Assembly (NCBI RefSeq): GCF_019392195.1
Contig: NZ_JAHXKI010000002.1
Span: 930,001 to 994,000 of the forward strand
Direction: 5' to 3'
Length of the DNA stretch: 64,000 bases
Source: Marinobacter sp. F4206
GTDB lineage: Bacteria > Pseudomonadota > Gammaproteobacteria > Pseudomonadales > Oleiphilaceae
This document shows positions 3,611 to 64,000 of this stretch, piece after piece; positions within the stretch are counted from its first letter, which is position 1; each line of letters starts with the position of its first letter. Below the pieces are notes generated by a model. The model was not told the DNA's origin. It made no database searches and worked only from the letters and a program-made list of their open reading frames with translations. Position numbers and translations under genes: made by a program.

Positions 3611-4357
3611 ATGGCCGATACCGCTCCCGTTGCCCTGATAACCGGCGCTGCCCATCGCCTGGGCGCAAGAACCGCTCAGGCCCTGCACGACCGCGGCTGG
3701 AACACTGTCATTCACTACCGCAGCCGAAGGGAACAGGCCGAGACGCTGGCAGCCAGCCTGAACCGGATTCGCCCGGAGTCAGCCACTGCCCTGCAGGCGG
3801 ATCTGAGCGACCTCGATCAGGTCCGGAGTCTCGGTGAAGTGTCGGCCGCCCAATGGGGCAGGCTGGACGGGCTGGTGAACAATGCCTCCGTGTTTTATCC
3901 CAACGCCACCCCGGAGGCGCGCCCTGAAGACTGGGACGCCATTCTCCATACCAACCTGAGGGCGCCGTTCTTTCTGCTCCAGTCATGCCTTCCGGCGCTT
4001 CGAGAGCAGGGCGGCAGTGTGGTCAATATGATCGATATCTACAGCGAAAAGCCGCTGACCGACCACCCGCTGTATTGCGCCAGCAAGGCCGGACTCGCAG
4101 CGCTGACCCGGTCCTGGGCCAAGGACCTGGCACCGGCCATCCGGGTTAACGGGGTGTCGCCCGGGGCAATCCTCTGGCCGGAAGGCGATGCCTCGGTCGA
4201 CGACAGCCACCAGCAGACGATCCTGAACAAGACGCCGATGGCAAGGACTGGCCAGCCTGATGATATCGCCCGGACCATTGCCTTCCTGATGTGCGATGCG
4301 CCCTTTGTGACTGGCCAGATCCTGCCGGTGGATGGTGGACGTAGCCTGAACATGTGA
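3611..4357 (+). CDS. folM: Pteridine reductase-like short-chain dehydrogenase
   Basis: A 248-residue NAD(P)H-dependent short-chain dehydrogenase. The cofactor motif is TGAAHRLG (residues 11-18), the form with Arg and Leu found in pteridine reductases (PTR1/FolM) rather than the usual TGxxxGxG of sugar or ketoacyl reductases. The NNAS motif is at residues 90-93, the catalytic Tyr155 and Lys159 are in YCASK, and an Asp (D142 in IDIYSEKP) replaces the usual catalytic Ser, as in PTR1. FolM reduces dihydromonapterin or dihydrofolate. It follows cca by 9 bp, which suggests co-transcription. Naming as folM is by family resemblance; the substrate is not proven. Confidence 0.8.
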
Positions 4358-4472
4358 CCGCTGCTTTGGTCCCTTTGGCCGTTCGGCGCTTTCCGGATAC
4401 AATGGCGGCAGAGTCCCATTCTGTCCGCGCGGTCACCCCGGGATCCGCGCCCAATCGAACCGGAGAACACCC

Positions 4473-5651
4473 ATGCGTGATGTCGTCATCGTTGCAGCCA
4501 AACGTACTGCCATCGGAACCTTTGGTGGTGGCTTGTCGAGCCTGCGCGCCGACCAGTTAGGCACCGCGGTCATCAAGGCCATCCTGGAAGATACCGGCGT
4601 CCCCGCTGATCAGATTAATGAAGTCGTGCTCGGCCAGGTTCTGACCGCAGGCTGCGGCCAGAACCCGGCCCGTCAATCCTCGATCAACGCAGGCATCCCG
4701 GCATCCGTACCGGCCATGACCATCAACAAGGTCTGCGGCTCCGGCCTGAAAGCCGTTCATATGGCGGTCCAGGCGATTCGCTGCGGCGACGCCGAACTGA
4801 TGATTGCCGGCGGTCAGGAGAGCATGAGCCAGGCCCCCCACGTCCTGCCTAACAGCCGTAACGGCCAGCGCATGGGCAACTGGAACATGGTCGACACGAT
4901 GATAACAGACGGCCTCTGGGACGCCTTCAACGACTACCACATGGGCGTTACGGCCGAGAACATTGTCGAGAAGTATGGCATCAGCCGTGAGGAGCAGGAT
5001 GAGTTTGCCGCTGCCTCCCAGCAGAAAGCGGTGGCCGCGCGCGAAGCCGGTTATTTTGATGGCCAGATCGTACCGGTGTCGATCCCCCAGCGGAAAGGCG
5101 ATCCGATCGTGGTCAGCGAAGACGAAGGTCCACGGGACGGCGTCACCGGCGAAGGCCTGGGGAAATTGCGTCCGGCGTTCAAGAAAGACGGCACCGTTAC
5201 CGCGGGCAATGCCTCGTCCCTGAACGATGGGGCCGCAGCGGTGATGGTGTGCAGTGCCGACAAGGCCAAAGAGCTTGGGCTGACCCCGCTTGCCACCATC
5301 AAGGCGCACGCCAACGCCGGAGTGGATCCGACCATCATGGGTACCGGCCCGATCCCTGCCAGCCAGCGCTGCCTGAAACTGGCGGGCTGGAGCGTTGACG
5401 ACCTCGACCTGATTGAAGCCAACGAAGCCTTCGCCGCCCAGGCTATCTCCGTCAACCGGGATCTGGGCTGGGATACCAGCAAGGTGAACGTGAATGGCGG
5501 CGCCATTGCCCTGGGCCACCCGATTGGCGCCTCCGGTTGCCGGGTCCTGGTATCGCTGCTGCATGAAATGGTCCGGCGCGACGCCCACAAAGGCCTCGCC
5601 ACCCTGTGCATCGGCGGTGGCATGGGCGTTGCCCTGGCTGTCGAGCGCTGA
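4473..5651 (+). CDS. phaA: Acetyl-CoA C-acetyltransferase (thiolase)
   Basis: A 392-residue biosynthetic-type thiolase that condenses two acetyl-CoA to acetoacetyl-CoA or runs the reverse cleavage. The acyl-accepting Cys88 lies in [11 protein letters not shown], the active-site His in GHPIGASG and the second Cys in the C-terminal LCIGGGMG motif. The length and motifs match AtoB/PhaA enzymes. The downstream trmL starts 5 bp after the stop, so both may share a transcript. No phaB or phaC is in the window, so a role in polyhydroxybutyrate synthesis, ketone-body use or amino-acid degradation cannot be chosen here. Confidence 0.9.
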
Positions 5652-5656
5652 GCGCG

Positions 5657-6121
5657 ATGCTGAATGTGGTGCTGTACGAGCCGGAGATTCCGCCGAACAC
5701 GGGGAACATCATCCGGCTGTGCGCCAACACGGGCTGTCAGCTGCATCTGATCCAACCCCTGGGGTTTACCCTGGAGGACAAACAGATGCGGAGGGCCGGG
5801 CTGGATTACAGCGAGTACGCCACCGTCCGGATACATGAGAACTATCAGGCTTTTCTCGACACAGAGCAGCCAAAACGGCTGTTCGGGCTCACAACCAAGG
5901 CCAGCCGTCGGTATCATGAAGTGAGTTACCGGGCCGGTGATTACCTTATGTTTGGCCCCGAGACCCGGGGTTTACCCGCCAATGTGCGGGAAGGCCTGGC
6001 ACCGGAGTGTCGGCTGAGAGTGCCGATGCGAAGGGAGAGCCGCAGTCTTAACCTGTCCAATACCGCAGCTCTGGTGGTTTACGAAGCCTGGCGACAACTG
6101 GGATTTGAGGGTGCCATCTGA
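5657..6121 (+). CDS. trmL: tRNA (cytidine(34)-2'-O)-methyltransferase TrmL
   Basis: A 154-residue SPOUT-fold methyltransferase that 2'-O-methylates the wobble base of leucine tRNAs (CmAA and cmnm5UmAA anticodons in E. coli). The three knot motifs are present: [14 protein letters not shown] near the N-terminus, FGPETRGLP, and the C-terminal [15 protein letters not shown] that binds S-adenosylmethionine. The ATG at 5657 gives the standard [13 protein letters not shown]-terminus, and the frame upstream lies inside the thiolase gene. A terminator follows 16 bp after the stop. Confidence 0.94.
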
Positions 6122-60034: not shown

Positions 60035-61486
60035 TCAGGGCATAAGAACATCCGGTTCCCCCACCGCCGGCAGTTCAATGATTTCCCGATGTTTGCCATC
60101 CCGGCCCATCAATGCCTTGATCAGCAGTTTGTAGGAATCCAGGTCAAACGTGACTGCCTGGCCCCGCAGCGACAGATCACGGGCATCACTTTCCTCATGG
60201 ACCGTTGCCACGTGCATCCAGTTGTAGACCACGAGGATATCGGTTCGCCCGGCGAACCGGTCGCGCTCGACCACACCCACCGGCCCTTTCCATGGCCAGG
60301 TCTGCAAGCGAAGACCGTGGAACGCGATCTGGGTTCGGAGATTGTAACGGGTCACGTCCTCCAGGCCTTCGCAGGCACCTCTGCAACGCCCCAGAGCCCG
60401 CTGGAAACAGGCACCTTCGTGATCGGGCTCGAGTCCGAGCAGGCGGTTACACAGGTCATTTTTCGCGGCAATACCGCTGAGCGCCCGCTCGGCATCCCGC
60501 TTGCTCCGGAACAGGCCGAAATAGTCCCCCAAGCGGTGCGGCTTGATCTCCCGAACCAGGCGCGCCTGCAAAAAACCGTCGCTGTTTTCGCATAACTCGA
60601 TACTCACCAGGTTCTTGGCGGCACGGGACCGACGATTGAACATCGGCTTCAGGGTCTTGATCTGTTTCAGTTCCAGTAACAGGGCGCCCAGCTCCCCGGC
60701 CGTTTCTGTCCAGTCCACCCGCCGCAGGCTCTCGGACATGCGGACGCCACGACTGGTGTTGTGATCCCCAGAAAAGTGGGAAGCCACCCGCTGGGCAATA
60801 TTGGTGCTCTTGCCAACATAAAGCAGCACGTCGTTCTCACCGTAGAAGCGATATACACCAGGCCCGGAAGGCAGGTCCTGGAGCGTATCCGGAGGCAGGT
60901 GCGAGGGAATACTCGGGCGCTGAAGCAGATCCCGGACTGCCCTCTCCATTTGGTCATCGCCCTTGTCCATCCGGGCATGGAGGAAGAACGACAGCATGGC
61001 CTCCACGTCGCCCATGGCCCGATGGCGCTGCACTTGTGCCAGCCCATGGCGTTCAATCAGGGCATCCATGTTGTGGCGCCGGAATTCCGGATACAGACGG
61101 CGGGACAGCTTTACCGTGCACAACACCCTGGCCGAGAACGTCCGACCGAGCCGGCGGAACTCCGACTTGATGAAGCCATAATCGAACCGGGCGTTGTGGG
61201 CGACGAACACCGTGCCCTGCAACTGAGCTTCCAGGTCATCGGCGACGTCCGCAAACAGGGGCGCATCCGACACCATCTCATTGGAGATCCCCGTAAAATT
61301 CTCGATGAACCGGGAAATACGAGCCTCAGGGTTCAGCAGCGTCTGCCACTCTCCCACTGTTTTTCCGTCGCGCCAGAAACGAATGCCGATCTCGGTAATC
61401 CGGTCCCGGGAGGCGTTGCCTCCTGTCGTTTCGATGTCGAGAAAGGCAAACGTTGTGTTCTGCAGGTGTGTACTTTCGGATGTCAT
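60035..61486 (-). CDS. DnaQ-type exonuclease fused to UvrC/Cho-like GIY-YIG domain
   Basis: A 483-residue two-domain protein. The N-terminal DEDDh exonuclease has FLDIETTG (Asp and Glu), FVAHNARFDYGFI and HRAMGDVEAM. After a linker (about 170-205) a GIY-YIG nuclease domain follows (GVYRFYGENDVLLYVGKSTNI), then a region like the C-terminal part of UvrC/Cho with the Cys-rich CFQRALGRCRGACEG. The fusion suggests incision and 3' trimming of damaged DNA by one enzyme. Known as a conserved but little-studied architecture in several proteobacteria and actinobacteria. Confidence 0.88.
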   Translation of the reverse strand: MTSESTHLQNTTFAFLDIETTGGNASRDRITEIGIRFWRDGKTVGEWQTLLNPEARISRFIENFTGISNEMVSDAPLFADVADDLEAQLQGTVFVAHNARFDYGFIKSEFRRLGRTFSARVLCTVKLSRRLYPEFRRHNMDALIERHGLAQVQRHRAMGDVEAMLSFFLHARMDKGDDQMERAVRDLLQRPSIPSHLPPDTLQDLPSGPGVYRFYGENDVLLYVGKSTNIAQRVASHFSGDHNTSRGVRMSESLRRVDWTETAGELGALLLELKQIKTLKPMFNRRSRAAKNLVSIELCENSDGFLQARLVREIKPHRLGDYFGLFRSKRDAERALSGIAAKNDLCNRLLGLEPDHEGACFQRALGRCRGACEGLEDVTRYNLRTQIAFHGLRLQTWPWKGPVGVVERDRFAGRTDILVVYNWMHVATVHEESDARDLSLRGQAVTFDLDSYKLLIKALMGRDGKHREIIELPAVGEPDVLMP

Positions 61487-61648: not shown

Positions 61649-62785
61649 ATGCAAAGCAACAAATTAAGAACGGCAATTCGTGCGACAGCAGCTGTAGCAG
61701 TGATGGGTGCAGCTTCTCAGGCGGGTGCCGTTAGCTTGAATGTGGGTGACGACGTCGAAGCAAGCCTCTACGGCTACGCGCGCCTTAACATGAGCTACGA
61801 TCTGGACGATAACCGGGCTGTATCAACTCGTGCCGGTACCTTTACCTCTTCCGCCAACCCTGACTCTGAAGGCCACTTTGGTGCCGATGTTCAGCAGAGC
61901 CGCTTGGGCATCAAGGTAAACCACGCTTCTGGCGTTGCCATCACAGTTGAAGGTGATTTCCGTGGCTCCGGCAATGGCGCTGGCAGTCTGCGTATGCGTC
62001 ACGCCTTTGGTGAGTACAAGGGCCTGATGGCCGGACGTAACTGGTCTAACTACACAAGCTTCGTGGGCAACACCCCGACGCTCGACTTTGACAGCCTTGC
62101 CGGTACTGCGGGTAGCCAGGACCGTACGGAGCAGATCCGTTACACCACGGGCGCACTGTCCTTCTCTCTGGAAGACCCGAGTGCACAAGGCGTTCTCGGC
62201 GCAGGTGACAATACCCGCACCTCTGCCCCGGCCCTTACTGCTCGCCTTCAGGATTCAGCGGGTGGGTTCTCCTATGCAGCGGCGGTTCTGGTAAGCCAAG
62301 TCACTGCCGACGACGGCACCAACGATGACAGCGCACTGGGTTACGCTGCATTTGGTGCAGCATCACTTGATCTGGGCGACATGCTCTCTGTTCAGGGTGC
62401 GGTTAACTACACCGACGGTGCCAACGGCTACCTCTGGCGCTCAGGATCCAACTACTTTGGACCCAGCGCATATGTTGATGGCACCAGCATTGAAACCATT
62501 GAAGGCGTTGGCGGCTCCCTCGGCGTCAGCCTGGCACTCGGCGGTGGTCGCAGTGTTAACCTGGGCTACGGCCTGACGACTCTGGATCTGGACGACGCGA
62601 TTGCGGCTGGCGCAACAACCAATGCCGACGCAGAGACCAACCAGAACATGTTCCTGAACTACATGTGGACCCCTGTCCAGAATGTGATGATGGGCGTGGA
62701 GTACGGTTACTTCGATCAGGAAACTGTTGCCGGCGACTCCACAGACGCCAACCGCGTTCTGTTCGCTGCTCAGTATAGCTTCTAA
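61649..62785 (+). CDS. DcaP-like outer membrane porin
   Basis: A 378-residue porin with a signal peptide (ending QAGA), then a short acidic segment and 16-strand-type beta repeats; the protein ends QYSF with a terminal Phe. The early motif LYGYARLNMSYDLDD and QSRLGIKVNH are typical of DcaP-like trimeric porins that pass organic acids. ATG 61649 is chosen over the upstream GTG because it sits 9 nt after GGAG. It is followed by a terminator, and is likely well expressed as a single gene. Confidence 0.85.
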   Translation: MQSNKLRTAIRATAAVAVMGAASQAGAVSLNVGDDVEASLYGYARLNMSYDLDDNRAVSTRAGTFTSSANPDSEGHFGADVQQSRLGIKVNHASGVAITVEGDFRGSGNGAGSLRMRHAFGEYKGLMAGRNWSNYTSFVGNTPTLDFDSLAGTAGSQDRTEQIRYTTGALSFSLEDPSAQGVLGAGDNTRTSAPALTARLQDSAGGFSYAAAVLVSQVTADDGTNDDSALGYAAFGAASLDLGDMLSVQGAVNYTDGANGYLWRSGSNYFGPSAYVDGTSIETIEGVGGSLGVSLALGGGRSVNLGYGLTTLDLDDAIAAGATTNADAETNQNMFLNYMWTPVQNVMMGVEYGYFDQETVAGDSTDANRVLFAAQYSF

Positions 62786-62811: not shown

Positions 62812-62838
62812 GGCCCCGGCATTTGCCGGGGCTTTTTC
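62812..62838 (+). terminator. Terminator after the porin gene
   Basis: A 8-bp GC-rich stem (CCCCGGCA with TGCCGGGG) is followed by CTTTTTC, 26 bp after the porin stop codon. Confidence 0.88.
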
Positions 62839-62945
62839 GTTCCATTCCGGTGCAACAGGCACCGTCATGATTCAAACCAGCCCCACCGCTTACACCACGC
62901 CAACCCGATCCTCAAAAAATTCAGAAACTTAGCAGCCCGAACTTT

Positions 62946-62962
62946 TTGGCACACCTGATGCT
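62946..62962 (+). promoter_or_regulatory. Sigma-54-type -24/-12 promoter
   Basis: TTGGCAC followed by ACCTG then ATGCT has the GG and GC dinucleotides 12 bp apart, as required by RpoN, and matches TGGCAC-N5-TTGC at all but one position. It lies about 70 bp upstream of the 36-residue gene, after the porin terminator. An enhancer-binding activator site would be needed; none is obvious. Confidence 0.62.
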
Positions 62963-63033
62963 TAGTAACCCTTGCATGGAATGCGACGGAGACACTCCGC
63001 CCCGTTCAGCTTATTAACCAATGAGGTGACACG

Positions 63034-63144
63034 ATGAAAAAGGCCAAAGACCAGAACCTGCTGTTCGAACTGACCCAGCCCTACGAGGCCGCAACGATGC
63101 AGGACCTGCACGACTACTTTGACTGGATGTTCTTCGCCAACTGA
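63034..63144 (+). CDS. 36-residue conserved-looking micro-protein
   Basis: A very short gene with a strong GAGGTG ribosome-binding site 5 nt before the ATG, its own sigma-54-type promoter and a good terminator 17 bp after the stop. The peptide starts with a basic MKKAKDQN, then FELTQPYEAATMQDLH, and ends in an aromatic-rich DYFDWMFFAN. No transmembrane segment and no known family. The FFAN end is reminiscent of PqqA (which ends near YFAN), but the Glu and Tyr that form PQQ are missing, so PqqA is not proposed. It may be a leader peptide, RiPP precursor or small regulator. Confidence 0.68.
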   Translation: MKKAKDQNLLFELTQPYEAATMQDLHDYFDWMFFAN

Positions 63145-63161
63145 GAGCAAACCCTACACAC

Positions 63162-63200
63162 AAAAAAGCCGGGAGGGCGTTATGCCCTCCCGGCTTTTTC
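63162..63200. terminator. Bidirectional terminator between micro-gene and aceF
   Basis: A perfect 12-bp stem (AAGCCGGGAGGGC with GCCCTCCCGGCTT) flanked by A-run and T-run, with a short GTTAT loop, between the 36-residue gene and the convergent aceF. Confidence 0.93.
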
Positions 63201-63232: not shown

Positions 63233-64000
63233 TTACAGCAACAGGGACCGAATATCCCCCAGCAGCTGGCTAAGCAGTGTCGTGAACCTTGCCGCATCGG
63301 CTCCGTTCACCGCACGGTGATCGTAGGACAGCGACAGCGGCAGCATCAGCCGGGGCTGGAACTCCTTGCCATCCCAGACCGGCTTCATGGCCGCCTTGGA
63401 GACGCCCAGGATCGCCACCTCCGGCGTATTCACGATCGGCGTAAATGCCGTGCCGCCAATACCACCCAGACTGGTGATCGTGAAACAGGCACCCTGCATC
63501 TCCGCAGGCTTCAACTGCTTGTCACGGGCCTTTTGGGCCAGGTCGGCACTCTCCGCCGCCAGCTCCCACAGCCCCTTCTTATCGACATCACGGATCACCG
63601 GCACCATCAGCCCGTGAGGCGTATCCACGGCAATGCCAATGTGGATGTATTTCTTGCGGATCACTTCCTTCTTGTCCATGTCCAGGGAGACATTGAACTG
63701 CGGCAGCTCCGCCAGCGCGGTAGCACAGGCCTTCAACATGAATGGAAGCGGCGTCATCTTCACGCCCTTCTTCTCACCGGCCGCTTTCTGCGCCTTGCGG
63801 AAATCCTCCATGTCGGTGATGTCCGCATCCTCGAACTGAGTGACGTGCGGCACATTCAACCAGCTGCGCTGCATGTTGGTGGCTGTCGCCGCCATCATGC
63901 GGGACATGGCCTCCTTCTCAATGTCACCAAACTGACTGAAGTCAGGCAGCTTCACGCCCGGGATTCCAGATGCAGTACCTACGGACCCGCCTTGCTGGGC
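63233..64000 (-). CDS. aceF: Pyruvate dehydrogenase E2, dihydrolipoyl acetyltransferase (5' end outside window)
   Basis: Only the C-terminal 255 residues are visible; the frame is open to the right edge, so the lipoyl domains and most of the linker are missing. The peripheral-subunit end and the full catalytic domain are seen: LPDFSQFGDIEKEAMSRM, then MTPLPFMLKACATAL, SLGGIGGTAFTPI and the catalytic DHRAVNGADAARF. The KLPDF start and the motif spacing point to AceF rather than SucB. It transfers acetyl from lipoamide to CoA. Confidence 0.93.
   Translation of the reverse strand, partial: AQQGGSVGTASGIPGVKLPDFSQFGDIEKEAMSRMMAATATNMQRSWLNVPHVTQFEDADITDMEDFRKAQKAAGEKKGVKMTPLPFMLKACATALAELPQFNVSLDMDKKEVIRKKYIHIGIAVDTPHGLMVPVIRDVDKKGLWELAAESADLAQKARDKQLKPAEMQGACFTITSLGGIGGTAFTPIVNTPEVAILGVSKAAMKPVWDGKEFQPRLMLPLSLSYDHRAVNGADAARFTTLLSQLLGDIRSLLL

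Follow-up and report, generated by a model that had tools for sequence, protein, structure and literature searches.

A 36-codon gene with its own sigma-54 promoter and putative NtrC sites encodes a conserved small protein in Marinobacter and its relatives

The window analysed here, a 64 kb stretch of the Marinobacter sp. F4206 genome, contains an intergenic region between a porin gene (end at 62785) and the convergent aceF gene (end at 63233), and a micro-gene sits there after the porin terminator. The initial annotation had described this unit as a self-contained sigma-54 gene for a 36-residue peptide, with a -24/-12 promoter whose GG and GC lie 12 bp apart, a leader of about 60 nt, a ribosome-binding site and a bidirectional terminator, and each of these parts was found in its place. 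The features of the locus are as follows.

62838-62854, + strand: candidate NtrC-type site 1, CGTTCCATTCCGGTGCA (9.5 bits with the glnK matrix described below)
62858-62874, + strand: candidate NtrC-type site 2, GGCACCGTCATGATTCA (6.2 bits with the same matrix)
62946-62962, + strand: sigma-54 (-24/-12) promoter, TTGGCACACCTGATGCT, with GG at 62948-62949 and GC at 62960-62961, 12 bp apart
62973-63033, + strand: 5' leader of about 61 nt, the putative transcription start being placed at about 62973 from the promoter geometry
63023-63028, + strand: ribosome-binding site GAGGTG, with the Shine-Dalgarno GAGG at 63023-63026 and the ATG (63034) 7 nt further
63034-63144, + strand: open reading frame MKKAKDQNLLFELTQPYEAATMQDLHDYFDWMFFAN, 36 codons plus TGA (63142-63144), read from the sequence and from homologue alignments
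63166-63199, both directions: rho-independent bidirectional terminator, common to the micro-gene and the convergent aceF, with a 14-pair stem at 63166-63196

When both strands of the window were scored, TTGGCACACCTGATGCT was the best -24/-12 match and the sole site reaching at least 11/13. Most Marinobacter loci keep the ribosome-binding site as GAGGTGACACC-ATG, and the terminator stem is preceded by an A-run and followed by a T-run, so that transcription can be ended from both sides; the fold of 62972-63200 gave z = -4.4. Upstream in the window, a minus-strand gene (60035-61486) appears by eye, from its translation, to fuse a DnaQ-type exonuclease domain to a GIY-YIG (UvrC/Cho-like) part.

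A tblastn search of 124 Marinobacter genomes returned 40 matches, one per genome, of which 39 had an intact frame and the 40th was a decayed copy. All 39 intact frames comprised 36 codons and ended in FAN, and the other two forward frames were interrupted by stops in 38 and 28 of the 39 loci, respectively. Over 19 non-overlapping Marinobacter pairs, a pN of 0.084 and a pS of 0.439 were determined, corresponding to a dN/dS of 0.135, with only 0.026 for residues 24-36; selection on the 36-residue frame is strongly purifying. Both frame and start, whose loss from related genomes was to have counted against the initial annotation, were conserved, and the selection that it had proposed to look for was found. 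With 39 intact frames and one decayed copy among 124 genomes, and a -24/-12 site upstream of all 39, the unit is more than a chance frame: it is a real conserved protein-coding gene. In the decayed copy (locus L040 of genome G076, ∼1331-1760), comparison with the window and with locus L026 revealed that ∼180 nt carrying the enhancer sites, promoter and leader were missing; the ATG was lost, the frame shifted and FAN changed to FAS, with the ribosome-binding site and the C-terminal codons still recognisable. Promoter and frame were thus lost together, as expected of one functional unit. About two thirds of the Marinobacter genomes gave no match at the sensitivity used, so the peptide is dispensable and its function accessory or replaceable.

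The promoter was retained along with the frame. A -24/-12 site of at least 9/13 with both GG and GC was present within 140 nt upstream of the frame in all 39 intact Marinobacter loci, 36 of them scoring at least 10/13, compared with a chance expectation of ∼0.05 such sites per search zone calculated from the window's own site density. Such a site was also detected in most other loci of the family, in copy B of the Ketobacter group, in the f7 genomes and in Pseudomonas sp. N040; some genera have long leaders, with the site at -294 in L081 and at -406 in L085. No sigma-54 site was found upstream of copy A of the Ketobacter group or of the most divergent members (L087, L091, L092, L093 and L106). 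Copy A is preceded in several genomes by a conserved TGTTACAAA...TTGAC, which looks like a sigma-70 promoter, and a copy lacking the sigma-54 site lies downstream of an SDR dehydrogenase gene in L094, L096, L098, L100, L044, L045, L047 and L048. This conservation of the promoter supports RpoN dependence of the transcript, and the description as a sigma-54 micro-gene for a conserved peptide stands, frame and promoter both being retained across relatives.

A profile (A1) built from 20 Marinobacter sequences detected relatives at E ≤ 0.1 in 71 of 163 family genomes, spanning 14 of 16 genera (the weakest few are doubtful); further relatives came from certain other families of the Pseudomonadales. 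The peptide recurs in most Oleiphilaceae genera, in Ketobacter and its relatives, and in two Oceanospirillaceae-type genomes; among named genomes, a pattern scan recovered Marinobacter, Hahella, Oleiphilus, Tamilnaduibacter, Mangrovitalea, Ketobacter and one Oceanospirillaceae MAG. In the family that contains Ketobacter it is present in 12 of 15 genomes and, leaving one genus aside, most of these have two copies. Alignment of the members defined a core motif, [DE]Y[FL][DE]xM[FY]FAN-stop. In most members LFELT stands ahead of it, and the N-terminus is variable. The most telling member is that of Pseudomonas sp. N040 (L121, 4760-4871), MDTNAASAPSADVTLVCSPAFLLFLNDYFESMYFAN, which has only the C-terminal DYFESMYFAN in common with the family and is preceded by the sigma-54 site CTGGCACGCCCCATGCT and by an NtrC-type site scoring 12.7 bits; since only this motif is shared and the promoter is of the same type, the C-terminal motif is taken as the conserved core. 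A class-wide draw of 369 genomes yielded nothing convincing outside the order: its four matches (E from 2e-4 to 7e-3) were partial, three of them within frames of 353-1561 codons, and were rejected, as was a Haploplasma match of the pattern scan (L116), a chance hit whose frame holds no corresponding small gene. No match to the peptide came from plasmids, phages or viral contigs. With conservation confined to the C-terminus, the searches may have overlooked divergent homologues in Pseudomonas and elsewhere. Two divergent cases are recorded here, namely a copy ending in AYFEEVVGK and lacking a detectable sigma-54 site in Hahella (L092, genome G509, ∼3985-4090, reverse strand), and a weak homologue (L106, ∼3980-5670, E 0.0015) lying ∼460 nt upstream of a same-strand Amt-type ammonium transporter gene.

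AlphaFold2 modelling with 28 family sequences predicted a short N-terminal strand pair followed by a helix at residues 16-35, with a mean pLDDT of 89 that drops to ∼73 at the C-terminal end. A Foldseek search with this model returned no similar solved structure, and sequence comparison gave no match in Pfam or NCBIfam for the peptide or seven divergent members, nothing in PHROGs for the window peptide (two relatives only at E ≥ 0.059), only E ≥ 1.6 in the PDB, and nothing near the gathering score in Rfam; no description of the peptide was found in the open-access literature. The protein is therefore conserved, yet named by no protein library. Membrane binding through an amphipathic helix was considered and is not supported, because the hydrophobic moment of the C-terminal helix was not above that of shuffles. 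That the final 9-13 residues and the position of the stop are extremely conserved would also suit an adaptor or decoy of proteolysis, in which a protease such as Lon or ClpXP reads an exposed C-terminal YFAN while a client is bound to the LFELT/helix part, and some members do end in FA or FG; no neighbouring gene recurs, however, and we consider this reading unlikely, although it fares best among the alternatives.

Upstream of the promoter, the inner halves of candidate sites 1 and 2 form a perfect palindrome, CGGTGC-AACAG-GCACCG (62848-62864). Both NtrC half-sites of the window have their strength on the inner side only, and the scores are moderate; judged from the sequence, this region probably represents two adjoining NtrC sites. 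The half-site GGTGCA recurs across species at about the same distance as in site 1, and many relatives have TGCACC-type half-sites at the position of site 2. Words of GGTGCA/TGCACC occurred upstream of the peptide promoter in 31 of 56 dereplicated loci, versus 3.1 expected; most Marinobacter loci have them ∼88-99 bp ahead of the promoter. For a non-circular test of NtrC, a 17-bp matrix (TGCnCCAnnnTGGnGCA) was built solely from glnK upstream regions of 16 genomes, and with it the peptide promoters of 55 dereplicated loci were scored for NtrC sites (TGCNCC-N5-GGNGCA). The best score averaged 9.9 bits in these 55 promoters, compared with 1.8 for block shuffles and 1.7 for 1100 real windows of background, and 60% of the promoters but only 1.8% of the genomic background windows reached at least 9 bits (Mann-Whitney ∼1e-31, a value to be read with the non-independence of related loci in mind). 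The signal was present separately in Marinobacter (mean 9.9, 26 loci), in other genera of the family (mean 10.8, 22 loci) and in Pseudomonas sp. N040, and the best sites clustered at -89 to -91, -100 to -103 and -108 to -110. Weak scores despite a clear -24/-12 site were obtained in L039, L105, L069 and copy B of the Ketobacter group, and the two f7 genomes were weak as well. Among the other sigma-54-type sites of the host, high scores fell mainly to nitrogen genes; the strongest were those of glnK (16.8), a urea-carboxylase-type gene (14.2) and a nitrate ABC transporter (10.3), and a further high-scoring one (10.3) adjoins an ABC permease. These patterns strongly suggest NtrC as the activator of the peptide promoter. 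Neither the NtrC-type sites nor the C-terminal core motif had been noted in the initial annotation; its proposal of a regulator tied to nitrogen status gains support as far as regulation of the gene is concerned, and no further.

The host encodes ten sigma-54 activators, among which FleQ, FleR, NtrC, PilR and PrsR were assigned from sequence, and so PrsR, PilR, FleQ/FleR or the unassigned regulators L164 and L169 could drive the micro-gene in place of NtrC. The GGTGC-N5-GCACC palindrome of many Marinobacter loci, whose half-sites are reversed relative to the canonical NtrC site, would fit such another enhancer-binding protein. Against this, the glnK matrix finds sites where the palindrome is absent, for example TGCGCTATCCTGGCGCA in L076 and CGCACTATAACGGCGCA in L034, and the motif is missing from the host flagellar, pilin and TRAP promoters (flgB, flgF, fliK, pilA and dctP-type, scores -3.3 to 3.5), leaving a non-NtrC activator somewhat less probable than the proteolytic adaptor. 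PrsR too drives small sigma-54 units. As a candidate here it was rejected, its described targets carrying a TTTACA motif (PMC1569441).

Known small RNAs of the NtrC/RpoN regulon are likewise short sigma-54 transcripts that carry a terminator of their own, and the transcript of the micro-gene could act mainly, or in addition, as an RNA regulator like NrsZ, the frame being secondary; the empty Rfam scan excludes known families only. Nevertheless, the dN/dS given above places the selection on amino acids, the leaders vary in sequence and have no consistent strong fold (mean z -0.64, 22 leaders), and the frame is retained where leader and flanks have wholly changed, which makes this reading improbable and places it behind the previous two.

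The surroundings of the gene offered no partner. Clustering of neighbours over 70-odd loci revealed no operon partner and, apart from local synteny, no recurrent gene; a porin gene lies upstream in 43 loci, and the convergent gene on the downstream side encodes AceF, an acyl-CoA dehydrogenase or an oxidoreductase. Of the roles suggested initially, that of an attenuator leader is not supported, as no co-directional gene follows, aceF being convergent with an intrinsic terminator in between; and a RiPP precursor or secreted signal peptide, although the product is short with an aromatic conserved C-terminus, is very improbable, given that no clade has in its flanks (∼1.5-4 kb) a recurrent gene for a maturase or other modification enzyme, a protease or an exporter, no signal sequence is apparent by eye, and the C-terminal end, where RiPP cores usually diversify, is constant.

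We therefore favour, at a probability of roughly 0.6, a stand-alone small protein of the cytosol that belongs to the response to nitrogen limitation, made under NtrC and sigma-54 and probably docking on a partner via its C-terminal helix. When nitrogen is limiting, phosphorylated NtrC would bind sites ∼90-110 bp ahead of the -24/-12 element and activate RNA polymerase carrying sigma-54; the short mRNA, covering this gene alone, would be translated from its strong ribosome-binding site and stop at the terminator; and the C-terminal helix, with its almost invariant end DYFDxM[FY]FAN, would dock on a larger protein and thereby tune nitrogen or linked carbon metabolism. Stability of the peptide, its binding to a protein partner and a role in nitrogen metabolism that goes beyond mere induction by nitrogen limitation are inferred. 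The NtrC and sigma-54 marks on its switch make it look like a small player in how marine bacteria meet nitrogen scarcity. More tentatively, and with less than even odds, the widespread Pseudomonadales family as a whole may be NtrC-activated and adjust a core protein of nitrogen assimilation (GlnK, GlnA, AmtB or NtrB) post-translationally, with the C-terminal helical motif as the docking element.

Nitrogen control by NtrC is among the best-studied bacterial circuits, and the small proteins described in nitrogen control are mainly archaeal and cyanobacterial; a conserved 36-residue protein of marine gammaproteobacteria, oil degraders among them, whose gene has an NtrC/sigma-54 promoter to itself, is a well-defined and readily deleted candidate for an undescribed layer of this circuit, and illustrates that very short genes overlooked by annotation are detectable by combining promoter and codon conservation. 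One comparison is with the glnK promoters of the same organisms, which likewise have a -24/-12 element with NtrC sites 80-110 bp upstream, but drive genes of PII proteins, whereas the micro-gene product is a 36-residue orphan. NrsZ of Pseudomonas aeruginosa, an RpoN/NtrBC-dependent small RNA, is likewise a stand-alone transcript of the NtrC/sigma-54 regulon; it works as RNA, whereas in the present unit the encoded protein is under selection. In cyanobacteria, the glutamine-synthetase inactivating factors and PirA are under the regulator NtcA. These are, like the peptide, small proteins under global nitrogen control, and are reported to work through binding to a metabolic or PII protein (PMC6316151, PMC8092223); they belong to another phylum and regulator, are longer, and have no recognisable sequence relation to the 36-residue peptide. 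In Methanosarcina mazei, the 61-residue sP36 binds AmtB1 and GlnK1 (PMC10714827). Like the present peptide, sP36 and sP26 are small proteins tied to nitrogen limitation, but they are archaeal, work without sigma-54 or NtrC, and are likened to it by description rather than by sequence match. With no sequence relation found and no partner indicated by the gene neighbourhood, membership in any of these types is not claimed, and the peptide may at most resemble sP36, the inactivating factors and PirA in its mode of action. Should this hold, the family would be a bacterial equivalent of the small proteins that regulate nitrogen metabolism in archaea and cyanobacteria.
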